This document shows positions 30,143 to 40,593 of a stretch of 64,000 nt of DNA, piece after piece. The position numbers and the translations under genes are program-made. This DNA is from Suipraeoptans intestinalis (GTDB lineage Bacteria > Bacillota > Clostridia > Lachnospirales > Lachnospiraceae), in contig NZ_VULY01000018.1 in NCBI RefSeq assembly GCF_009696485.1, forward strand, positions 569,001-633,000, given 5' to 3'. The notes under the pieces were generated by a model that saw only the letters and a list, made by a program, of their open reading frames with translations, was not told the origin of the DNA and did not search any database. Numbering within the stretch: position 1 is the stretch's first letter; each line of letters starts with the position of its first letter.

Positions 30143-30529
30143 TATGTTTTCTCCTTTTTCATCTTCTTTGCCGGGAAAACGTCTCTTTCCCGACCGCACA
30201 ATGCTTTCTCTTTCGATCCGGCAGGGCTTCCTCTTCTCGGACAAATAAATTCCTCCCGGAAGGGATGCCGACCGTTCGAATGCAGCGCTCTGCTGCAGCC
30301 TGCCGCTTTAGCATACCTTACAGGAGGAGTTTATTCCGTTGTTTTTACAACATTTATAGGTTTTCAAGCGAATCTTTGCCAAAACAGCAACCCTGTTGCT
30401 ACTTATCAAGGACTTTCTAATCATTTTTATCACTTTTTTGATGTTTTTCTCTCTCCATTTCTCTAAACGTTAATCAAAACCTTATTATACCAACGATTGT
30501 GGCACCTTTTTGGTGTCAGTTGGTGTTAA
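30143..30529. other. Host/island junction, non-coding
   Basis: It contains the hemerythrin-operon promoter (30310-30351). The DNA turns AT-rich from about 30430 as the island begins. An AGCAAC-CCT-GTTGCT hairpin (30386-30400) lies near the change. No attachment-site core was identified. Confidence 0.5.
30310..30351 (-). promoter_or_regulatory. Activator-type promoter of the hemerythrin operon
   Basis: A TATGCT -10 lies at 30310-30315 with no good -35. The perfect dyad GTTGT-AAAA-ACAAC (30338-30351) is centred about 41.5 bases from the expected start site. That is the classic class II position of Crp/Fnr activators. Confidence 0.55.
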
Positions 30530-31576
30530 TTATAGTGATAAGTCGTTTAAGAGACTTAAAGCATCGGCATCTTGCTGGTGCTTTTTTTCTGGCATCAATT
30601 CTAGATAATACTGTTGTGTTGTTAAGATTGAGTTATGACCTAGACGACGAGAAATATAGTCTAGGCTAATATCTTTTGAAAAGAGAAATGAGGCATGCGT
30701 GTCACGAAGTCCATGAAATGTCGTTTTTGTTAATCCCAACTGTTTTAACAGCTTTTGAAGTTGACCAGCTTGCTTGAATCCATTCCAATCAAAGATATAG
30801 CCTTCTTTTGTTTGTGCAAGTTTTGTCACGGCTTGATAAACATCTTCGTTGATAGAAATATCACGCTTAGAATATTTGGTTTTAAGCTGGGTATCGTCAT
30901 TAGTTGGACTAATTGATCGAAGAATTTTGATACCATATTCAAAAATATCTTCTTTTTTAATTCCTAAAAGTTCTCCACGTCTTGCTCCTGTCTCAAGGGC
31001 GAGAGCAACAAGAACATTAAATTCATCCTCAGTATGACTTAGGCAGTATTGTCTGAGTTTTTTAAATTCTGTGATAGATAGTGGAATATTTCGTTTAGCT
31101 TGTTCTTGCCCTTTTGCTTTTAAAAGATGACCAAAGTCATTGCTAATCAAACCACGAGCATACGCATATTTCAATGAACCACGGATTTTAAGAACAAGTT
31201 CTTTTACTGTTTTTTTAGAGTGGGTTTCAGCATATTGATCGATTTTCTTTTGCATGACGAGATCGTCAAGGTGTTTAAGTTGAATACCATCAAAAAGGTC
31301 ATCAACTACTACGAGAGTTCGTTTATAGTTTATAAAGGTGGCTTCGCGAACATCATTTTTCTTGACCGAATGGACCCAATTTCTATAAAAATCAGGAAAT
31401 AGGGTGGATCGTTCGGCAATGTTCTTGCCACGACCTTTTTCAAGTTCCATTTCTAATGTCCAAAGCTCAGCATCTTTTCTGTTGCTAAAGGTTTTGGTTT
31501 CTCGTTTATATTCTCCTTTCTTATAAAGTGATACAGTTGCACGGTAAGAGTTACCACGTTTTGTTATTGTTGCCAT
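30530..31576 (-). CDS. int: Tyrosine recombinase/integrase of the island
   Basis: The 348-residue integrase has an N-terminal arm-binding (AP2-like) domain starting MATITKRGNSYRATVSLYKK. A SAM-like core-binding domain follows at about 65-160, and then the catalytic domain. Catalytic residues are Arg in ETGARRGELLG near 195, HGLRDTHASF near 285, LGHNSILTTQQYY near 305 with Tyr. The low GC and the sequence style resemble streptococcal/lactococcal phage and ICE integrases, unlike the host genes. It lies at the left edge of the island with an excisionase upstream, as in integrative elements. Confidence 0.93.
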   Translation of the reverse strand: MATITKRGNSYRATVSLYKKGEYKRETKTFSNRKDAELWTLEMELEKGRGKNIAERSTLFPDFYRNWVHSVKKNDVREATFINYKRTLVVVDDLFDGIQLKHLDDLVMQKKIDQYAETHSKKTVKELVLKIRGSLKYAYARGLISNDFGHLLKAKGQEQAKRNIPLSITEFKKLRQYCLSHTEDEFNVLVALALETGARRGELLGIKKEDIFEYGIKILRSISPTNDDTQLKTKYSKRDISINEDVYQAVTKLAQTKEGYIFDWNGFKQAGQLQKLLKQLGLTKTTFHGLRDTHASFLFSKDISLDYISRRLGHNSILTTQQYYLELMPEKKHQQDADALSLLNDLSL

Positions 31577-31666
31577 TTTATCAGCCTTTCTATAAAATAT
31601 GATTGATAAAATAGACTAGTCACATATAGGATATATGAAAAATCTAATTTTATCAATCATTATCCG

Positions 31667-31855
31667 TCAATCGCAGTGGCTTTCAATAAATTTAATCAGT
31701 TTTGACTTCAAATAGCGCTCTTGTTTTCCTACCATAAAGCATTGAAAGTCTGGGTGACTTCTGATGTACTTATCAAATGATTTAGGATCTATTCCAAGTA
31801 GTTCCGCTGCTTGTTGTCGATTTAACAGAAGAGGAGAATTATTTTGAGGTAACAT
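31667..31855 (-). CDS. xis: Excisionase-like DNA-binding protein
   Basis: At 62 residues, it has a winged-helix/MerR-like HTH: LLLNRQQAAELLGIDPKSFD (residues 8-27) followed by VGKQERYLKSKLIKFIES. This is the standard form of excisionases encoded next to tyrosine integrases. AAAGGA precedes the ATG, and the gene is 90 bases upstream of int in the same orientation. It presumably steers Int toward excision. Confidence 0.8.
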   Translation of the reverse strand: MLPQNNSPLLLNRQQAAELLGIDPKSFDKYIRSHPDFQCFMVGKQERYLKSKLIKFIESHCD

Positions 31856-31943
31856 ATAGAATTCCTTTCATTTTCTAGATACAAGTATTATGCCACATGT
31901 GTAATGAATTGAGGCTAGATTTTTGAAAAATGTGCAATGTTAC

Positions 31944-32954
31944 CTAGCGTTTCAATAATATATAAGCATAGGAACGAGGAAATTCCTCTGGTCTATTGTG
32001 TCCCAGAGCCTTTGTCACAATTTTACAAGCTTTTCTGTCGAGTGAGATGCCAACTAACTCTTTACGCAGATGGATAACTTCTTTACGATTTCTAATCTTG
32101 GAAATTTCGCGTGCTACACTGCGATAAACACGCTCTGCATACTCAGCACGATACTTATGTGGCTTTAATGCAGTGGGAACTTTCTTTCCATCAAAATCGT
32201 CGAGAATTAAATCTTTGGGAACATGAAACACTCTCTTTTCTCCTGCTCGTTGGAAAATAGCGACTAACCACTCTTCCTCCTCTTGACTAGTGGCCATGAT
32301 TGGAGACCAGCGATCTCTGCGTCCTTTTGTGTGATGCTTATGGCCGTCTAAATTTAAATACCAACGGCCATCACGGCCACGTTGCATAGCGTCACCAGTG
32401 ACGTGGATCAGTTCACTTTTACGTAAGCCTGTTGAGGCAACTACTTTATGCCAGTAGTCGTTATTTTTGTTAGATAAACGATAGTCTGTATGTAATACAC
32501 GATTGTTCATGCGATTTGCACGTGTACGTGGTTGTGTAGCGATAAAATTAGTTGAGGAAACTCCGAGAACTTTGGCCAATGCTGCTTTGTAGGTTGCTTG
32601 TGTATATGGACTTAAACCAATCTCTATACAATATTGTAAGTATTGATTGATAAGTTCTATCCAACCTTCCGTATCTTTTTCAACATTACCTAATACCATT
32701 AACTGTTCTGGTGAAATGTGAATTGAAACCCATTTTGCAAAACAATGCCATGAACCCGAATAGTTATGGAGTGTACGATGAGTGTGGATTAACTCAATGT
32801 CATCTCCTGTTTCTTTGGCCTCTTTACGCTTAATGCCTTTTCCTTTTTTGAATCGTTTCTTTAAACTTGAAACTCCTTGAGAATTGACAAACTGAAGTCG
32901 GCCTTCTGGTGTTTTTAGCGCTTTGTTTTGTTTTTCTATCGCATGTTTTTTCAT
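31944..32954 (-). CDS. Divergent tyrosine-recombinase-like protein
   Basis: The 336-residue basic protein is unlike the int at 30530. After a lysine-rich tail (residues 1-55) comes a core-binding-like helical region to about 150. The C-terminal half has the tyrosine-recombinase set in order: Arg in STGLRKSELIHVTGD near 175, a KxKxxRR-like beta-hairpin stretch, HxxR in PHKYRAEYAERVYR near 265, LGHNRPEEF near 318, and Tyr in RSYAYILLKR at the end. The spacing suggests a real but distant member. Similar folds serve as resolvases, as second recombinases and, in clostridial plasmids (TcpM), as relaxases. Which applies here is open. Confidence 0.7.
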   Translation of the reverse strand: MKKHAIEKQNKALKTPEGRLQFVNSQGVSSLKKRFKKGKGIKRKEAKETGDDIELIHTHRTLHNYSGSWHCFAKWVSIHISPEQLMVLGNVEKDTEGWIELINQYLQYCIEIGLSPYTQATYKAALAKVLGVSSTNFIATQPRTRANRMNNRVLHTDYRLSNKNNDYWHKVVASTGLRKSELIHVTGDAMQRGRDGRWYLNLDGHKHHTKGRRDRWSPIMATSQEEEEWLVAIFQRAGEKRVFHVPKDLILDDFDGKKVPTALKPHKYRAEYAERVYRSVAREISKIRNRKEVIHLRKELVGISLDRKACKIVTKALGHNRPEEFPRSYAYILLKR

Positions 32955-32998
32955 TTTTCTACGATCTGAACGTGATCGTCTTTTTTATTTTTAGTCAT
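32951..32998 (-). CDS. Possible 15-codon coupled mini-ORF
   Basis: MTKNKKDDHVQIVEK is preceded by AAAGGAG at a normal distance, and its stop overlaps the start of the recombinase-like gene as ATGA. It could be a coupling leader peptide or the frameshifted true N-terminus of the downstream protein. Confidence 0.35.
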   Translation of the reverse strand: MTKNKKDDHVQIVEK

Positions 32999-33254
32999 AA
33001 CTGACTCCTTTCTTTTTTGTACCAATGGTTGAGGTGTTTTCGATTAACGCGATACTTCCGAAAACAGTGTCTTCCTGCTGCGGCAGGTGTTCTTTATGTT
33101 TTTTTGATTGGAGAAGACTACTCCAATGCTCAATTTGGATTCTAGAGCTTGAATAATTGAAACGCTTTATAACGTTTATTTTTTGTATTTTTTCGATTTG
33201 AACGATTTCTTGCTTTGGTTTCGCTATTCGTAAAACTGGATTATAACTATGGAC
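32991..33254 (-). pseudogene. Open frame without a usable start codon
   Basis: An 87-codon frame, basic and lysine-rich, runs into the mini-ORF at 32951. A strong AGGAGG (about 33266) stands before it, but an in-frame TGA (33255-33257) and lack of ATG, GTG or TTG leave no start. It may be a remnant of a lost small gene, or use a rare start. Confidence 0.35.
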
Positions 33255-33373
33255 TCAGTAATATTTCCTCCTTTATGATGCAGAATTTATTTAATAATAT
33301 TTCAATTTGATTGTGACTATATCTTTGTTACTTTATCTGGACCTACGGCCTAAAAACTCCTTTCTATATTTTG

Positions 33374-33435
33374 TTAGTTGAATAACTGAGTCATTATTTT
33401 TGAAATAATTGAACCTTACGAATATGAAATCGCAC
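33374..33435 (-). other. Two overlapping mini-ORFs behind a strong ribosome site
   Basis: A 13-codon ORF (GTG, 33394-33435, MRFHIRKVQLFQK) follows AGGAGG at 5 bases. Its stop overlaps the ATG of a 6-codon ORF (33374-33394, MTQLFN). Their order downstream of a hairpin and promoter resembles a leader-peptide region of the recombinase operon, or the debris of decayed genes. Confidence 0.35.
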
Positions 33436-33448
33436 TATTTCCTCCTGT

Positions 33449-33477
33449 CTATCTGATGTTGAAAAAACACCAGATAG
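33449..33477 (-). promoter_or_regulatory. Leader hairpin just before a ribosome site
   Basis: CTATCTG (33471-33477 on minus) pairs with CAGATAG (33449-33455), extended inside by TGTT/AACA. It ends one base short of ACAGGAGG, so it could control access to that site. Confidence 0.5.
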
Positions 33478-33506
33478 TGTTTAGCTCTAGTCATTCAATT
33501 TTTACG

Positions 33507-33535
33507 ATATTACTATGCCACATTTTCAAAATCAA
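33507..33535 (-). promoter_or_regulatory. Promoter toward the recombinase-like gene
   Basis: TTGATT (33530-33535) and TAATAT (33507-33512) are separated by 17 bases on the minus strand. It lies immediately after the terminator at 33534-33560, giving the recombinase operon its own start. Confidence 0.6.
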
Positions 33536-33560
33536 AAAAACACAGAAATATTTTTCTGTG
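33534..33560 (-). terminator. Terminator closing the left side of the repeat array
   Basis: On the minus strand CACAGAAA-AATA-TTTCTGTG is followed by TTTTTTTG, a strong intrinsic terminator facing out of the array. No gene lies upstream of it on that strand, which implies a non-coding transcript from the array. Confidence 0.75.
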
Positions 33561-33616
33561 AATAGATAAGAAGCTGAAAAGTATTCGACATGCCAATTCT
33601 GTAGAAAGGAAATAGT

Positions 33617-34090
33617 ATAACTTAAAAAGGTAAAAGATGACTTTTCAAAAATCCATTACCTTAACGAATCAATTGATAGTGAAACTAGTCCATTACTAGC
33701 TAAAAGATGGTTAAGTAGAGTTTCCCATTTTATCGCTAAATGTGGAATAGTAAAGAAGTCTAAGTTTTCTTAAAAAGTGGATTTGAATAGAGGTCCATTA
33801 TGATAGAAATAATGGTGTATTAGAGTAGCCCACTTTGATTTGCGATATGGACTTTTAGAATAATCCATATTTTCAGTAATGTTGGAATACTAAAGAAAAC
33901 CATGAAAACTTGACTTGTTGGTTCATAGAGAAATCCATTTTTCTATGAAAGATGAGCCAGTAAAGTAACCGATTCAGTCGTAAAAGATGGCTAACTTAAA
34001 ACTGCCGCTTAGTTTATGTTTATGGACGAATATAACCATCCATTTTTTCTCAAAAAGTGGAATAGTAAAGAAGTCAGTGGAATAAGTAAA
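33617..34090. repeat. 35-bp-phased array of about 13 degenerate dyad repeats
   Basis: Units start at 33617, 33652, 33689, 33724, 33759, 33794, 33829, 33864, 33899, 33934, 33968, 34003, 34039 and 34074 (the last partial). Steps are 35 bp, with only slips of 34, 36 or 37. A typical unit opens TCCATTTTT, has an inverted partner AAAAGATGGA about 8-13 bases on, and ends TAGTAAAG. Sequences differ widely, but the CCA...TGG dyad is kept, sometimes with longer matched arms (CCATTAT/ATAATGG in the unit at 33794, about 10 bp in the one at 34039). It is not a CRISPR: there are no constant repeats and unique spacers. Confidence 0.8.
34062..34090 (-). promoter_or_regulatory. Promoter-like pair reading into the array
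   Basis: TTTACT (34085-34090) and TACTAT (34062-34067) are 17 bases apart on the minus strand. A transcript would cross the whole array and end at the terminator at 33534-33560, about 520 bases. Repeat units carry the same TACTA-like word, so this may be fortuitous. Confidence 0.4.
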
Positions 34091-34127
34091 GGGCAGGAGA
34101 TTTCGATATTTTCTGCCTATTTTTATT
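34091..34127 (+). terminator. Terminator closing the right side of the repeat array
   Basis: GGCAGGAGAT (34092-34101) pairs with ATTTTCTGCC (34108-34117), with two G-U pairs and a TTCGAT loop. It is followed by TATTTTTATTT. It faces outward, opposite to the one at 33534-33560. Confidence 0.75.
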
Positions 34128-34154
34128 TATTCTACTGATGTTATTATTGAGATA

Positions 34155-34306
34155 ATCTCATTTTGATGAGATACGTGTTTAGCGTGAGTAACGATAGTTT
34201 ACTCACGCTAAACACGTAGGCTTGCAGCCCAAAAAGAAAGCTCGATGCTTTCTTTTTTCCTTGCAGTCGGTTCTAACGAACCGATGTTTTGCGAACCGCG
34301 CAAAAC
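34155..34306. repeat. Cluster of five consecutive strong hairpins
   Basis: Hairpins are 34155-34172 (ATCTCAT/ATGAGAT), 34172-34218 (a perfect 20-bp stem around TACGTGTTTAGCGTGAGTAA), 34231-34257 (AAAAAGAAAGC/GCTTTCTTTTT), 34267-34284 (TCGGTTC/GAACCGA) and 34286-34306 (GTTTTGCG/CGCAAAAC). Such stacked dyads are typical of transfer or replication origins (oriT, single- or double-strand origins). The third is also a terminator-like stem. No nick site could be assigned. Confidence 0.65.
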
Positions 34307-34368
34307 CTGCTCGCGAAGATTGCTCGCATAATAAAGTTGCTTGCCGGTATTGTATCTTACTAAAAAAC

Positions 34369-34397
34369 TTGATATTATTCGGCTAACCGTCTATAAT
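34369..34397 (+). promoter_or_regulatory. Promoter of the HTH-ydcF-bceRS operon
   Basis: TTGATA and a perfect TATAAT are separated by 17 bases, with a small CGG-CTAA-CCG dyad in the spacer. AGGAGG and the first ATG follow at 34416-34428. Confidence 0.75.
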
Positions 34398-34425
34398 ATA
34401 AGTAGATGGATTAAGGAGGACGGCA

Positions 34426-34614
34426 ATGTTCGAGTATATGACTGTACAAGACGCAGCAAAACTATGGGGCTTGTCAGAACGACGAGTGCAGAAACTTTGT
34501 AAAGAAAACCGTATCAAAGGTGTAGTGCATTTAAATCGTATTTGGCTAATACCCAAACAAACACAGAAGCCCCTTGATCAGCGATATAAATGTAATTGGC
34601 ATTCGGAGGAATAG
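34426..34614 (+). CDS. Small helix-turn-helix protein (excisionase/MerR-like)
   Basis: This 62-residue protein starts MFEYMTVQDAAKLWGLSERR, an HTH_17-type winged helix like those of excisionases, with a C-terminal WLIPKQTQKP. It opens the operon that continues with ydcF-like, response regulator and kinase genes. It could regulate that operon or be a leftover of a mobile element; its small size and position 3 bases before the next gene favour co-expression. Confidence 0.75.
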   Translation: MFEYMTVQDAAKLWGLSERRVQKLCKENRIKGVVHLNRIWLIPKQTQKPLDQRYKCNWHSEE

Positions 34615-34617
34615 AAA

Positions 34618-35613
34618 ATGATATATTGGATTATATTTGGGGCTTTTACGGCTATATTTATAGGTTCATTTTTGAGGGAAAAACGTGCTTTCAGAAATTC
34701 AATCTTTCTTGCATTGAGCTTAGCATCGCTATTTGTTGCAGTGGCTTATGCTACAAATGGGACAATAGTTAATACTTTACTTAATATAGTTCTGTATACA
34801 GTCATCCCGTTGATTTTACTGTTTATTTCCTTTGTCTTTATCTATGCAGGAGTGATTGCAATAAAAAGAGAACGTTTCAGTTTGGCACACAGTTTATCTA
34901 TTGCGTTTGGAGTTGGAATTTGGGGCGCATTCGTTGCTGTGGCAGTAACGATTTCAGCTAAAAATTTATCGACTATTACGATGTCAATGGTTGTATTGAT
35001 TGCCCTCATCGCGATGTATGTTATTTTTACTTTTTCAGCACTCTTCATTTACTCACAGCTCTACCACCTTTTGCCGAAAAACAAAAACTGTGATTTTATT
35101 ATCGTACATGGTGCTGGGCTGCTTAACGGCGAAAGGGTCTCCCCTCTGCTGGCTGGAAGATTGAATAAGGGAATTGAGGTATTTGAGAGTTCCGGGAGAA
35201 AAGCAAAAATTATAGTTTCAGGCGGCCAGGGCAGTGATGAAAATATATCTGAAGCCGAAGCCATGAAAAATTATCTTCTGGAAAAAGGAATCTCTGAGCA
35301 TAACATTATCATGGAAGATCAGTCCACCACAACTCTTGAGAACATGATGTTCTCAAAAAAAATTATGGATCAGATGATGTCCCAGTACCGTGTGATTTTT
35401 GTAACAAATGATTATCATGTTTTTCGAACTGGGACATATGCAAAACAGGTTGGATTAAAAGCGGATGGTGTTGGGTGCAAAACAGCTTTTTATTATTGGC
35501 CGAATGCGTTTATCAGAGAGTATATCGCAATTATTCTCAAATATAAAGCAGTGCCTATCGTGTTATTTCTGCTTTGGTTGGCAGGTACAGTTGTTTCAAT
35601 GTTAAATTTTTAG
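34618..35613 (+). CDS. YdcF/SanA-family (DUF218) membrane protein
   Basis: The 331-residue protein has about five membrane segments in residues 1-150, then a soluble DUF218 domain: DFIIVHGAGLLNGERVSPLL near 160, RKAKIIVSGGQGSDE near 195, SEAEAMKNYL, EDQSTTTLENMM and FVTNDYHVFRTG near 265. A last hydrophobic segment follows. The family acts at the envelope; E. coli ElyC and SanA are linked to cell-wall precursor metabolism and vancomycin tolerance. Placed before a BceRS-type system, a role in envelope stress or antibiotic tolerance fits (inference). Confidence 0.85.
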   Translation: MIYWIIFGAFTAIFIGSFLREKRAFRNSIFLALSLASLFVAVAYATNGTIVNTLLNIVLYTVIPLILLFISFVFIYAGVIAIKRERFSLAHSLSIAFGVGIWGAFVAVAVTISAKNLSTITMSMVVLIALIAMYVIFTFSALFIYSQLYHLLPKNKNCDFIIVHGAGLLNGERVSPLLAGRLNKGIEVFESSGRKAKIIVSGGQGSDENISEAEAMKNYLLEKGISEHNIIMEDQSTTTLENMMFSKKIMDQMMSQYRVIFVTNDYHVFRTGTYAKQVGLKADGVGCKTAFYYWPNAFIREYIAIILKYKAVPIVLFLLWLAGTVVSMLNF

Positions 35614-35631
35614 ACGAAAAAGGAGATAAAT

Positions 35632-36330
35632 ATGAATTATAAAATTATGATAATAGAAGATGATCCCGATATTGCTGGACTCCTTTCAGACCATTTACAG
35701 CGGTTCGGTTTTTTAGTCTATCGGTGTAAAGATTTGAAAAATGTGATTGAGGAATTCAAGTTGGAAACCCCCCATCTGGTTTTGCTGGACATCAATCTTC
35801 CTGTCTATAACGGTTTCTATTGGTGTAATAAGATCAGAAGTATCAGTCCTTGTCCGATTATATTTCTTTCTGCCAGAAATACAGACTCCGATCAAGTTCA
35901 TGCCATTATGAACGGAGGGGATGATTATATTACAAAGCCATTTTCTTTTGAAGTGGTCACAGCAAAAATTTCCGCCGTCCTCCGCCGCACATATGGAGAG
36001 TATTCAAGTTTCAACGCAGATGAATTACAATGTGAAGATTGTATTTTTTCAAAAAGCAAATTAACATTGTCTTGTCATGGACATATGACGGAACTATCCA
36101 AAACAGAAGCAGGTGTGATCCGGGTGATGTTTCAGAATTATCCGAATATTGTAAGCCGTGAGGAACTGCTGAATGAAATTTGGGATGATGAGAGTTTTGT
36201 AGAAGAAAACACCTTGAATGTGACAATCAGCCGGATTCGCAAACGATTAGAGCGCATTGGCTCCACCCTTGCTGTTAAACCCGTCAGAGGCGTTGGTTAT
36301 CGCATAGGAGATTCACGTCATGAAAAATAA
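35632..36330 (+). CDS. bceR: OmpR-family response regulator (BceR type)
   Basis: The 232-residue regulator has a receiver domain with acidic pocket EDDPD (residues 8-12), phospho-acceptor Asp in VLLDINLPVYNG near 55, Lys in YITKPFSFEV near 104, and a C-terminal winged helix ending RPVRGVGYR-like KPVRGVGYRIGD. It forms a pair with the overlapping kinase gene and should control the downstream ABC transporter genes. Confidence 0.9.
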   Translation: MNYKIMIIEDDPDIAGLLSDHLQRFGFLVYRCKDLKNVIEEFKLETPHLVLLDINLPVYNGFYWCNKIRSISPCPIIFLSARNTDSDQVHAIMNGGDDYITKPFSFEVVTAKISAVLRRTYGEYSSFNADELQCEDCIFSKSKLTLSCHGHMTELSKTEAGVIRVMFQNYPNIVSREELLNEIWDDESFVEENTLNVTISRIRKRLERIGSTLAVKPVRGVGYRIGDSRHEK

Positions 36331-37339
36331 AAAACTTGCAAAACATTTAAAATGTTTTGTTTTGGATCACCTATGGGTAATTCTTCTTTTTTTAGCAGCG
36401 CCGGTTTCCATTATGATTGTTTATTTGACTTTAATTAGTGGAAATCCCGGAGGAACATGGTGGTATTATGTATTTTTATCTCTGTTTATTTTATTGTGCT
36501 TCTTGCTTTACCGGCTATATTCCACATGGGATTTTTATGAAATCCTCTGTAATGAAAACAAGACCTTGGAGGATTTTCTAATCAGCGAACCCAAAGGCCG
36601 CGAGGAACAGCACTATCGGAAGTTAGTTGAGGAACAGCACAGGTTATATTTAAACCGGTTAGCTCGTATGGAGGACAAGCAAAAGCAGAGTAAGATCATG
36701 ATTTATCGCTGGGTGCATCAATTAAAAATGCCTTTATCCGTGATCCGTCTGGTTTCAGAAAACAAAAAAGGCGATTCGGATTTTCGTAAAATAGCACAAT
36801 CAGCGGCGCAAATACAATATGATTTGGATCAGGTTTTGAATATGTATAAACTTGATGCAATAAAAAATGATTTTCATTCCGAAAAAGTGAATTTGCACAG
36901 TATGTGTAAAGATTGTATCAACGAGTTAAAAAGCTCATTTATTACAAAAGGAATTTTTCCAAAACTTGAGATTGCAGATGATTTGGTGGTGTACAGCGAT
37001 TCCAAATGGCTTCGTTTCGTGTTGTACCAACTCTTAACCAATGCTATCAAATATAGTGATGAAGGAAAGAAAATTACCGTCCGTGCTGACAGATCAGAAG
37101 AATGTACTTCATTGAGTATCCAAGATGAAGGATGTGGCATTGATCCTCGTGACTTCAATCGAATTTTTGATTTGTTTTTTACGGGACAGAATGGACGCCT
37201 GCGCGGAGAATCAAGCGGATTGGGCTTGTATATGGTAAAACAAAGCCTGGATTATCTGGGACATACCATAATGGTGCAGTCAGAATTAGGAAAAGGAAGT
37301 ACATTTACTATTTATTTTCATGCAAAAAGTGAAATATAG
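36320..37339 (+). CDS. bceS: Intramembrane-sensing histidine kinase (BceS type)
   Basis: The 339-residue kinase has two N-terminal membrane helices (about 13-35 and 44-63) with only a short loop between. That is the BceS/LiaS-like layout, which senses through the transporter, not directly. The phospho-accepting His is in YRWVHQLKMPLS near residue 135. The N box LLTNAIKYSDEG, DEGCGID and SSGLGLYMVKQSL form the ATP domain. Its ATG overlaps the end of the regulator gene by 11 bases. It ends before a strong terminator. Confidence 0.92.
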   Translation: MKNKKLAKHLKCFVLDHLWVILLFLAAPVSIMIVYLTLISGNPGGTWWYYVFLSLFILLCFLLYRLYSTWDFYEILCNENKTLEDFLISEPKGREEQHYRKLVEEQHRLYLNRLARMEDKQKQSKIMIYRWVHQLKMPLSVIRLVSENKKGDSDFRKIAQSAAQIQYDLDQVLNMYKLDAIKNDFHSEKVNLHSMCKDCINELKSSFITKGIFPKLEIADDLVVYSDSKWLRFVLYQLLTNAIKYSDEGKKITVRADRSEECTSLSIQDEGCGIDPRDFNRIFDLFFTGQNGRLRGESSGLGLYMVKQSLDYLGHTIMVQSELGKGSTFTIYFHAKSEI

Positions 37340-37344
37340 CATTT

Positions 37345-37392
37345 CGAGAAAGATTACAAAACTGTCATGTTCCGTAATCTTTCTCGATTTTT
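37345..37392 (+). terminator. Terminator after bceS with a BceR-like box in its loop
   Basis: CGAGAAAGATTAC (37345-37357) pairs perfectly with GTAATCTTTCTCG (37374-37386), then TTTTTATTTTTT. The loop edge holds TTACA-AAAC-TGTCA (37354-37367), one mismatch from the TNACA-N4-TGTAA motif of BceR-type regulators, upstream of the ABC genes. Confidence 0.8.
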
Positions 37393-37410
37393 ATTTTTTG
37401 AGATATCAGC

Positions 37411-37416
37411 TATACT
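37411..37416 (+). promoter_or_regulatory. Probable -10 of the bceAB-type operon
   Basis: TATACT here has only a T-rich stretch at the -35 distance, consistent with activation by the response regulator bound at 37354-37367. Confidence 0.5.
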
Positions 37417-37446
37417 AAATGCAGAACAATGAAGGAGGTTGTAAAG

Positions 37447-38205
37447 ATGTCAATTTTAACAACAAAACATCTTGGTAAAGTATATGAGGGAAAAGTTCCA
37501 TATACCGCTTTGAATGATATTAACTTTAGTATTGAAAAAGGAGAATTTGTCGCCATTATGGGACCATCCGGTAGTGGTAAAAGCACTCTTTTAAATGTGA
37601 TTTCTACCATCGATCACCCTACCAGCGGCAGTGTCTGCATTGATAGTGAAGATCCCCACGAAATGAATGACGACCAACTGGCACATTTTAGACGGAATAC
37701 CTTGGGCTTTGTATTTCAGGACTTCAATTTGGTGCATACTTTGACAGTGGGCGAAAATATCATGCTGCCGTTGACATTGGAAGGTGTTCCTGTTCCTGAG
37801 ATTAAAAAGCGCACCGCGGAGGTTGCTGCACTTTTAGGAATTGAGCCTCTCCTTTCCAAACGCACTTTTGAAATATCCGGAGGGCAGGCACAGCGTACCG
37901 CGGTTGCCCGTGCCGTTGTAACCAATCCGTCTTTGCTTCTGGCAGACGAACCTACCGGAAATCTCGATTCCAAGGCTACGAAAGATGTTATGGAATTATT
38001 CCGGATGCTCAACGAAACGAAAAATTCCACTATCCTGATGGTAACGCACGATTCTTTTGTGGCGAGCTATTGCAAGCGCGTCCTGATTATCAAAGACGGA
38101 CAGTTATACCAGGAAATTGTCTCCGATGGAAATCGAAGGACTTTTCAACAGGAGATTGTGGATGCTATGAGTCTTTTGGGAGGTGAACCGCATGACCTTA
38201 TTTGA
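37447..38205 (+). CDS. bceA: ABC transporter ATPase of a peptide-antibiotic resistance pump (BceA type)
   Basis: This 252-residue ATPase has Walker A GPSGSGKSTLLN (residues 40-51), Q loop FVFQDFNLVHTL, signature EISGGQAQRTAVARA near 140 (with A in place of the common Q) and Walker B LLLADEPTGNLDS. The start is the ATG at 37447, which has GGAGG before it; an ATG six codons earlier overlaps that site. BceAB pumps remove bacitracin or lantibiotics from their lipid targets and signal to BceS. Confidence 0.92.
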   Translation: MSILTTKHLGKVYEGKVPYTALNDINFSIEKGEFVAIMGPSGSGKSTLLNVISTIDHPTSGSVCIDSEDPHEMNDDQLAHFRRNTLGFVFQDFNLVHTLTVGENIMLPLTLEGVPVPEIKKRTAEVAALLGIEPLLSKRTFEISGGQAQRTAVARAVVTNPSLLLADEPTGNLDSKATKDVMELFRMLNETKNSTILMVTHDSFVASYCKRVLIIKDGQLYQEIVSDGNRRTFQQEIVDAMSLLGGEPHDLI

Positions 38206-40096
38206 CTTTGCCCGCAACAATATCAGCCGTGACAGAAGAAACTATATTTATTACTTCGTGAACTGCGTGTTTTCTGTATTTGTATTTTTCCTGTTCACAG
38301 TGCTGTCGTTTCACCCGGCCATGAGTATCATTGACCGAGACAGCACCATGGGGTTGATCCTTATAGTAGGCGAGCTTATTTCCATTGGATTTTCCGTTTG
38401 CTTTATTTCATACTCTGTGGGATGTTTTCTGAAGGCTCGAAGTCGCCAGTTCGGTTTGATCACTATTTTGGGCGCATCAAAAAAGCAGGTTAACAAACTT
38501 GTGTTTCTGGAAAACATGATTGTTGGATTTGCATCTATCGTAACGGGGATTTTGCTGGGATTTGTGTTTTCAAAATTCTTTTTGGACATTGCAAATAAAG
38601 TTATCGGCGTATCCGACTTTACTTTCTATTTCCCTGTTCAGGCAATCATTACTACTGTTATTGTCTTGGGAATTGTCTTTTTAGCGATTGCTTTTTTTAC
38701 GCCAAGGCTGATTCGCAAGAAAGAGGTGGTACGTTTATTAAAAACCGAAGTAACCGGTGAAAAGCCACAGAAACTGTTACCCCTTCTTATTGTATTTTTA
38801 GTTTTATTTGGTTTTATGGTTTGGCTTTTTACAAGCGGGACACAGATGGCTAAACAGATTCAGGACAATAGTGTGACTGCTTTGGTGTTGGTTTTTACCA
38901 TTATCACTGGAACTTATTTGATGTTTGCCTATGGAATGCGTATGGCCCTTGCCCTTTCAAAAAAAAGTCATGCAAGAGGACGTTTGCTTTATAGCAGCGA
39001 TAAAAAAGCAAAACTGAGAGCAAATGCGCAGACAATGACAATTTCCGCTGTATTGTATGCCATTTCATTCTTTTCCATCATCCTCCTGTTTTCCATATCG
39101 ACAAATGTGAAAACAGAAACGGAGAAGATCATGCCCTATGCTATAAGTTATAATGCCTGGACAGAAAATGCAGATGTTGCCGGCGACGTGGCTGTGATTG
39201 AAAAGGAACTGCAAGACTTGCCCGGTTATCAAAAAGCTGTATTTAACCTTTGGTACAATAAGGCTAACCCAACCCGTTCTGCGATGATGTCTGCAAGTGA
39301 TTACAACATCATAATGAAGTTTCTCGGTAGAGAAACAGTGACAGTTTCAGAAGACGGCGTTTTTCTCGTTGCTGGAAATGCAGGAGAAACCGTCAAAAAG
39401 ATTCCGTCAGATATTCAGTCCTTTATGGATGAAAATCGTTTTGATCTGTCTGTAGAAGGATATACAGAAGCAACCATTATGCTGTCCGGTTTCACAACCA
39501 ATGTTTGCATTGTAAATGATTCAGTTTTTGATGCTTTGAAGCCACAGATGGACAGCAAGACTATCACAGCATTTGTTTATGATAACTGGGAAATGAATAG
39601 TCATAGTCCCGAAGCGGTTGAAAACTCATTGAAAACCAGTATTGAAAACAGAGATGCAAATGTGATAACTGCGTACAGCTACTATCGCACCAGCCAGCTG
39701 CAGAACAATCTGACGTTATATATCGGCAGTATGCTGTGCTTCACGTTTATTCTTGCAGTTGCAAGCTTTATATACTCCAGACTATATTCGGAGTTGGATG
39801 CAGAATGCAAAAAGTACAAAGGAATTGTAAAAATCGGGTTGTCCAAGAAAGAGTTATCTTCTGCATTGCGTAAGGTAACATCCTTGATTTTGTTGGTTCC
39901 TTTCCTTGTTGCTCTGATTTACCTTTGGATTGGAATTTTTATTAGCGAACGATTTGCGATTGTTTCAAATATTCCGGTAGCTTTCTGGTGTACAGTTGTG
40001 CTGCTTGTATTGCAGACGGGAATTTACTTTGGAATCGATGCTTCCTATCGAAAAGCTGTTTTCCGTAAAGTGTATCAGGATTATGAAAGGAGTTAA
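38192..40096 (+). CDS. bceB: ABC transporter permease of the BceB type
   Basis: The permease is 634 residues long with FtsX-type helices: one near residue 20, three at about 50-180, further ones at 200-300, a soluble extracellular region of about 200 residues at about 300-515, and the last three helices near the C-terminus. This matches BceB/VraG. GGGAGG precedes the ATG at 38192, overlapping the ATPase gene by 14 bases. The extracellular domain binds the peptide-target complex and sets specificity, which cannot be read here. Confidence 0.9.
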   Translation: MTLFDFARNNISRDRRNYIYYFVNCVFSVFVFFLFTVLSFHPAMSIIDRDSTMGLILIVGELISIGFSVCFISYSVGCFLKARSRQFGLITILGASKKQVNKLVFLENMIVGFASIVTGILLGFVFSKFFLDIANKVIGVSDFTFYFPVQAIITTVIVLGIVFLAIAFFTPRLIRKKEVVRLLKTEVTGEKPQKLLPLLIVFLVLFGFMVWLFTSGTQMAKQIQDNSVTALVLVFTIITGTYLMFAYGMRMALALSKKSHARGRLLYSSDKKAKLRANAQTMTISAVLYAISFFSIILLFSISTNVKTETEKIMPYAISYNAWTENADVAGDVAVIEKELQDLPGYQKAVFNLWYNKANPTRSAMMSASDYNIIMKFLGRETVTVSEDGVFLVAGNAGETVKKIPSDIQSFMDENRFDLSVEGYTEATIMLSGFTTNVCIVNDSVFDALKPQMDSKTITAFVYDNWEMNSHSPEAVENSLKTSIENRDANVITAYSYYRTSQLQNNLTLYIGSMLCFTFILAVASFIYSRLYSELDAECKKYKGIVKIGLSKKELSSALRKVTSLILLVPFLVALIYLWIGIFISERFAIVSNIPVAFWCTVVLLVLQTGIYFGIDASYRKAVFRKVYQDYERS

Positions 40097-40100
40097 AAGA

Positions 40101-40472
40101 ATGAAGAGAATATTTAGCGTATTGTTTGCCGCAGTTGTGGTCTTATGTATGCTATCAGGATGTTCAATGAAAAATGAAACTTATTCTGACGAGGAAAAAC
40201 AAGTGATTAAAGCAGCAAATCAAATTATTTCCAGCGAGTACGATGTAACGTTTGATGAAGGCGATTTTTCCTATAGTGTAGGTAAACAAATCAAGGAAAA
40301 TGAATTTGTATCACTTGATTCCGAAGAAAAACAGCAGGAAACTTTTGAAAATATTGTAAGTGTTTCTGCACTTAAAACCAGTCTCCATGAAAAAGGCGAA
40401 GTATATGCCTATTCTGTGATTTTCAACTCTCAGACAAAGGAGATTGTGAGTATTAGCGTGAATGTTGAGTAA
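40101..40472 (+). CDS. Small lipoprotein after the BceAB-type transporter
   Basis: The 123-residue protein has a signal peptide MKRIFSVLFAAVVVLCMLSG-C, with lipobox LSGC at about 18-21. The mature part is acidic with no known domain. AAGGAG precedes the ATG, 4 bases past the permease stop, so it belongs to the transporter operon. It may be an accessory or immunity lipoprotein; function not recognised. Confidence 0.8.
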   Translation: MKRIFSVLFAAVVVLCMLSGCSMKNETYSDEEKQVIKAANQIISSEYDVTFDEGDFSYSVGKQIKENEFVSLDSEEKQQETFENIVSVSALKTSLHEKGEVYAYSVIFNSQTKEIVSISVNVE

Positions 40473-40593
40473 CAGTGATAAGATATGGTGATTCATGATG
40501 CCATCCCTTTGGCCACGGAATCAGCAAACAACAACTGCTCGGAACTCAAAAGTGAGTTTAGCTTTTATAAATTGTAACGTATGGATACCGACG

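Follow-up and report, generated by a model that had tools for sequence, protein, structure and literature searches.

Tyrosine-recombinase (TR)-like relaxases with an upstream oriT are established for TcpM of pCW3, MpsA/MpsB of SGI1, and MobK of pIGRK (PMC8152469, PMC6414798, PMC9299015), and the known TR-like relaxases are described as lacking a core-binding domain (PMC8152469). The oriT of pMV158 is compact (43 nt), with three inverted repeats just upstream of mobM (PMC5863519). A survey of streptococcal integrative and mobilizable elements (IMEs) left out elements that had an integrase but no known relaxase, and it named a TcpM-like relaxase as one reason that such elements might still be IMEs (PMC5357655).

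We analyzed a stretch of 64,000 nucleotides from Suipraeoptans intestinalis, hereafter the window, in which a mobile element carries an array phased at 35 bp and a tyrosine-recombinase-like gene that we call TR2. Like TcpM, MpsA, and MobK, TR2 has the tyrosine-recombinase catalytic set (RK(H/Y)RH plus a tyrosine), is found on a plasmid or integrative element, and has a long noncoding region and inverted repeats upstream. Unlike these proteins, TR2 has a core-binding domain, and no 35-bp array figures in the descriptions consulted for TcpM, MpsA, and MobK (PMC8152469, PMC6414798, PMC9299015). Elements with MOBV relaxases that carry such arrays resemble pMV158 in that a conserved inverted-repeat core precedes a Mob_Pre gene, whereas the pMV158 oriT, by description, has no 35-bp array (PMC5863519). 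The window element differs from the pMV158 type in having neither a MOBV gene nor the AACGTTAC core. It resembles streptococcal IMEs in its small size, in its integrase and excisionase-like genes, and in that no secretion-system gene was found in it, but it has no recognized relaxase, a part that TR2 would fill. The array itself is tandem, fixed-pitch, and AT-rich like plasmid iteron and centromere arrays but differs from them in its 35-bp pitch and its location beside transfer-type genes. A separate 22-bp-periodic stretch lies just upstream of the rep gene in G106:C2 and G113.

Structure of the array and its mobile element

The mobile element (30459-40592) is common to the window and a Streptococcus genome (G175), with 99% identity over 10.1 kb, and its core (30459-34339) is common to S. 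plurextorum and S. suis at about 96%. Judging by these sequence matches, the ancestry of the element is of the Streptococcus type. Of 40 genomes related to that of the window, a single other one matches TR2 even weakly, and this near absence indicates that the element moved between distant hosts. The host bin has an estimated contamination of 5.5%, and the element lies inside a 2.3-Mb contig. Together with TR2, the element encodes a phage-type integrase of 348 aa (30530-31576, minus strand; Pfam PF00589, phrog_1) and an excisionase-like HTH_17 protein of 62 aa (31667-31855, minus strand). We did not find a secretion-system (T4SS-type) gene among the element proteins tested or a Mob_Pre gene in the element, which has TR2 instead, and searches of a phage collection by blastn and tblastn gave no match. 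The cargo at 34426-40592, also common to G175, comprises HTH_17, DUF218, a response regulator, a histidine-kinase-like ORF, an ABC ATPase-like ORF, an FtsX permease, and a lipoprotein-like ORF and resembles a peptide-antibiotic sensing and export module. Elsewhere in the window is an ordinary lysine riboswitch (2143-2312; Rfam RF00168).

The array (33617-34074, plus strand) comprises about 13 units, as judged by periodicity against shuffles, unit register, and profile chain. Eleven well-formed units follow one another at a pitch of exactly 35 bp (33690-34074) and are preceded by two degenerate units from about 33620; a chain detector counted 13 in total. The profile chain score was 173 for the window array and 0 for Markov controls. 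At lags of 35, 70, 105, 140, and 175, between 44 and 50% of positions matched, against a mean of 29%. The best-of-all-periods score of 0.183 was reached in 0 of 1,000 shuffles (null, 0.024 ± 0.006; maximum, 0.053), and all other 485-bp stretches in the window scored at most 0.060. Each unit follows the grammar CCA-N15-TGG-N14, in which the CCA and TGG columns are conserved 15 bases apart and the last 14 bp form a spacer. These observations bear out an earlier note on this DNA, which had described some 13 units at 35 bp around a CCA...TGG frame. The note was also correct that no gene lies between the two terminators flanking the array, where we found no ORF of at least 60 aa, and that the array is not a CRISPR, which we excluded because the units abut at the 35-bp period without repeat/spacer alternation and are not near-identical (at most 89% alike, mostly far less). 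Rep iterons were likewise rejected, since neither ORFs nor family matches pointed to a rep gene in the 3.9-kb core of the element.

The two outward-facing terminators themselves were recovered in a consensus scan. A terminator-like hairpin with a T-rich tail marks the right edge of the array (34091-34127, plus strand; 34091-34118 in the scan) and is retained in G100, and a second such hairpin stands between the array and the TR2 promoter (33534-33560, minus strand; 33560-33541 in the scan) and is kept in S. plurextorum, G175, and G100. Four terminator-like sites were found in the region, against 0.7 ± 0.9 expected. The minus-strand promoter that the note had proposed, TTTACT-17-TACTAT, did not hold up: it scored 8 of 12, below the scan threshold, and promoter-like sites in the region overall were at chance level (4, against 5.7 ± 2.3 expected).

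The suggestion that the dyad arms change together, and with it a reading of the array as a structured noncoding RNA, failed as well. Standard pairs at the nine dyad positions numbered 68, against 66.8 ± 3.1 when partners were shuffled between units (p = 0.40), and the inner dyad pairs alone gave p = 0.37 in the same test. The quoted examples of matching arms in single units exist, but they are a chance outcome in AT-rich units. The window array folded more stably than dinucleotide shuffles (z of -4.2 for the plus strand and -3.5 for the minus strand), an excess due to unit composition according to column-preserving controls: fold energy equaled that of within-column shuffles for the window array (z of 0.3 and -1.0) and for the array in G102, and it was worse than theirs for the array of pSH0918 (z of +2.0 and +4.3). 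Rfam gave no credible match to the array. Thus, with co-variation absent and folding no better than in within-column shuffles, the array does not behave as structured RNA.

TR2 and its upstream region

TR2 (31944-32998, minus strand) was recognized from its catalytic residues and predicted fold. The readable ORF in the window spans 31944-32954, and the usual start codon near 32998 is out of frame; relative to S. plurextorum and G175, one A is missing from the A-run beside this start (32977-33011), which may represent a sequencing error, slippage, or real inactivation. The TR2 protein had no family match. Its catalytic R193, K225, H281, R284, H334, and Y344 (numbered as in the G175 protein) are invariant in 17 homologues. 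The predicted structure (mean pLDDT of 86) can be superposed, over residues 36-351, on the two domains of IntI4, lambda Int, XerA, and XerH, and a core-binding domain is present. Because of this domain, TR2 could be an ordinary recombinase, and we have not filed it as a member of the TcpM/MpsA/MobK type. Its position nevertheless makes TR2 a candidate tyrosine-recombinase-like relaxase. Relatives of TR2 occur on plasmids of S. suis, S. infantis, and others and in 31 of 284 Streptococcus genomes.

Read toward the gene, the window has the inverted repeat (34172-34218), array, promoter (33507-33540), leader, and TR2, and at related TR2 loci without an upstream array the inverted repeat adjoins the promoter. 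The inverted repeat, TACGTGTTTAGCGTGAGTAA-N7-TTACTCACGCTAAACACGTA, was located by pattern search and would represent an oriT-like core. In the form GTTTAGCG...CGCTAAAC, it occurred exactly once per genome in 30 of the 284 Streptococcus genomes; TR2 is present in 24 of these 30 (Fisher p = 3e-23, with genomes that are not independent). Its inner sequence is invariant, and the outer pairs and loop length vary. A search of open-access papers gave nothing evidently related to GTTTAGCGTG. Both this repeat and the inverted-repeat cores of MOBV elements are termed oriT-like from conservation and position only. The promoter-like element of TR2, TTTTTTTGATTTTGAAAATGTGGCATAGTAATAT (minus strand), is conserved in alignment and looks like an extended -10 promoter, of a kind also present elsewhere; a similar element precedes the MOBV genes in pFW213 and its relatives. 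An array unit as an operator within the TR2 promoter was considered and set aside, the likeness (TGGCATAGTA/TGGNNTAGTA) being short.

The long noncoding leader of TR2 (33012-33506, minus strand) contains two GGAGGAAA motifs and hairpins at 33107-33127 and 33066-33087. Other TR2 leaders (L006-L010, L090, and L103) are also long and untranslated; GAGGAAA or GGAGGAAA motifs recur in them, and near the gene start come a conserved hairpin and GAAGAYACT. The consensus RNA fold of the leader had an energy near zero. The leader is possibly a leader RNA, for which the sgm-sRNA of SGI1 offers a comparison, or part of the oriT.

Arrays beside MOBV relaxases and TR2

We assembled a three-unit profile (R1) exclusively from the G102 array and arrays linked to TR2 and searched 395 Lactobacillales and 284 Streptococcus genomes with it. 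Arrays with the CCA-N15-TGG grammar and 14-bp spacer were detected in 20 of the 284 Streptococcus genomes (E <= 1e-5; these genomes are not independent) and also on plasmids, so that the phased homologues envisaged in the earlier note do exist. A two-unit pattern was present in 4 of the 284 genomes and in none of the reversed control and gave no match in viral contigs. Arrays of this kind were not described in the open-access papers that we searched, and the statement that the array fits no nameable family was a fair one. By sequence comparison, the arrays constitute a homologous DNA family of fixed 35-bp pitch that is widespread and apparently undescribed.

Five of the 20 array genomes have TR2, and two have remnants of the TR2 module and the inverted repeat. 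In G102, which has about 10 units, an IS30-like transposase ORF (assigned by eye) occupies the expected place of TR2, with the TR2-linked inverted repeat beyond it. In S. suis, pSH0918-type plasmids carry 24 to 29 units of the same grammar directly 3' of a TR2 gene, the product of which is only 35% identical to the window TR2. One array genome has a MOBV remnant, and another has a weak Mob_Pre ORF. G075 contains a clear but degenerate CCAT..ATGG array of the 35-bp type (L150 4550-4950), with no recognized relaxase within about 4.5 kb and no TR2 or relaxase in the 11 kb examined.

In half of the array genomes (10 of 20: G092, G106, G111, G113, G146, G253, G290, G301, G305, and G311), the array lies directly upstream of a MOBV (Mob_Pre) relaxase gene, the G146 protein being MOBV only by tblastn to other MOBV-array relatives. 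The same placement was observed on plasmids pFW213 (typed mobilizable, MOBV) and NZ_CP134148. Since the MOBV proteins beside arrays fall into several divergent groups (about 31 to 60% identity), the linkage is old or repeated and not one recent copy. In MOBV relatives that lack an array, a conserved inverted-repeat core (CAAAAC..AAAACGTTAC..GTAACA) lies at -67 to -138 of the gene. Where an array is present, it occupies a wider gap between core and gene, the core then being at -377 to -954, and this gap is 70 bp longer for two more units. The window array, between the TR2-linked inverted repeat and the TR2 promoter, follows the same order as the MOBV elements, and the orientation of its units relative to the gene differs from that in the MOBV cases. 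The array is absent beside many MOBV genes and the majority of TR2 genes and is therefore not essential for either, and we found no array near a chromosomal TR2 group of 57% identity. Within each lineage, common descent may account for the linkage of the array to its MOBV or TR2 gene. A module swap between pSI01 (TR2) and pFW213 (MOBV) was rejected, as the two have mainly an 811-bp toxin-antitoxin segment in common.

Two further features of MOBV array elements were observed. A protein with RHH and coiled-coil parts and a weak NikA-like match is encoded on two of the plasmids (L127 of G106:C2, 2409-2795; L140, 3991-4368) and is a possible accessory or partition protein. In five of five cases (G305, G092, G301, G311, and G290), the element adjoins the 3' end of an rRNA-methyltransferase-like gene, which suggests an integration site.

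Candidate roles of the array

The earlier note had offered a protein-binding array for replication, segregation, or transfer, and it is the transfer branch that gained ground, by location of the array beside MOBV genes and TR2. We regard it as slightly favored that the array is a cis-acting, phased protein-binding DNA element of the transfer-initiation (oriT) region of mobilizable streptococcal elements. The array would be placed between the oriT core, represented by the inverted repeat, and the gene for the strand-nicking enzyme, and each unit would be bound by a protein, probably in the form of a symmetric complex on CCA...TGG. With about 10.5 bp to the helical turn, one pitch of 35 bp would correspond to 3.33 turns and three units to 10 turns, a pitch that suggests a helical protein lattice. 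The bound proteins would wind regularly round the DNA and could bend or open the origin or dock the element to the secretion machinery of a helper. The window element and the MOBV array elements tested have no protein in common, so the unit-binding protein probably comes from the host or a helper or is identical with the nicking enzyme. Because the array occurs beside two unrelated enzyme types, the HUH relaxases of MOBV and TR2, TR2 becomes a candidate relaxase; by the same logic, it would be a tyrosine-recombinase-like relaxase and the window element an integrative and mobilizable element. The occurrence of the array beside TR2s as divergent as those of the pSH0918 type supports a role in transfer. 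Against it, the pSH0918-type array is not between the inverted repeat and the gene, and the G075 array has no recognized relaxase nearby.

An unlikely alternative is a centromere-like or copy-control array, the units of which would be bound by a protein for positioning or segregating the element in its circular form. StbA acts in this manner on repeats beside the transfer origin of R388. Fixed pitch and phasing are typical features of partition-site arrays, ParA or RHH proteins are encoded by some carriers (ParA in pD20_2 and an RHH protein in G106:C2), and the habit of plasmids to group stability and transfer loci would explain proximity to a relaxase. However, the carriers have no partition protein in common, the window element and pFW213 encode none, an integrated element would have little need of segregation, and the array keeps its place beside relaxase-type genes rather than par genes.

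We consider it more doubtful still that a repressor or nucleoid protein coats the array as an operator and silences the relaxase or TR2 promoter. In the window, G096, and all MOBV cases, the array does end a short distance before the promoter of the gene, but in the pSH0918 type some 1 kb separates it from the gene start and a greater distance from the promoter, a terminator stands between array and promoter in the window, and the number of units is far above that of usual operators. It is very improbable that the array consists of integron-like recombination sites for TR2, with each CCA-N15-TGG acting as a 21-bp core in cassette capture or multimer resolution. The fold and residues of TR2 are those of a complete tyrosine recombinase and 21 bp is a plausible core length, but MOBV relaxases without TR2 have the same arrays beside them, the array is missing beside most TR2 genes, the would-be crossover region varies between units, and the array is uninterrupted by cassettes. 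A structured repetitive noncoding RNA of ~500 nt from the minus strand is scarcely credible, as the terminators on both sides and the folding below dinucleotide shuffles are outweighed by arms without co-variation, energies equal to or worse than those of column-preserving shuffles, promoter-like sites not above chance, and the lack of an Rfam match.

The transfer-initiation reading can be extended, tentatively and with a rather low probability of being right in full, to a portable transfer module in which the array would serve as a docking or relaxosome platform for both HUH MOBV relaxases and TR2 via a host or helper protein, with TR2 founding a relaxase lineage that bears a core-binding domain and would make many relaxase-less streptococcal plasmids and islands mobilizable. 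All 20 plasmids found with TR2 or a TR2 fragment were typed as "non-mobilizable" by standard software, which is weak support for TR2 as a relaxase, since some MOBV plasmids were typed likewise. Plasmids with TR2 carry the resistance genes optrA, tet(O), tet(S), and erm(B), and cfr(D) occurs with a TR2 remnant. If TR2 and its upstream region start transfer, a class of resistance plasmids may be mobile yet unrecognized. An array common to nicking enzymes of two unrelated types would suggest a shared, hitherto unknown protein of the relaxosome or helper.
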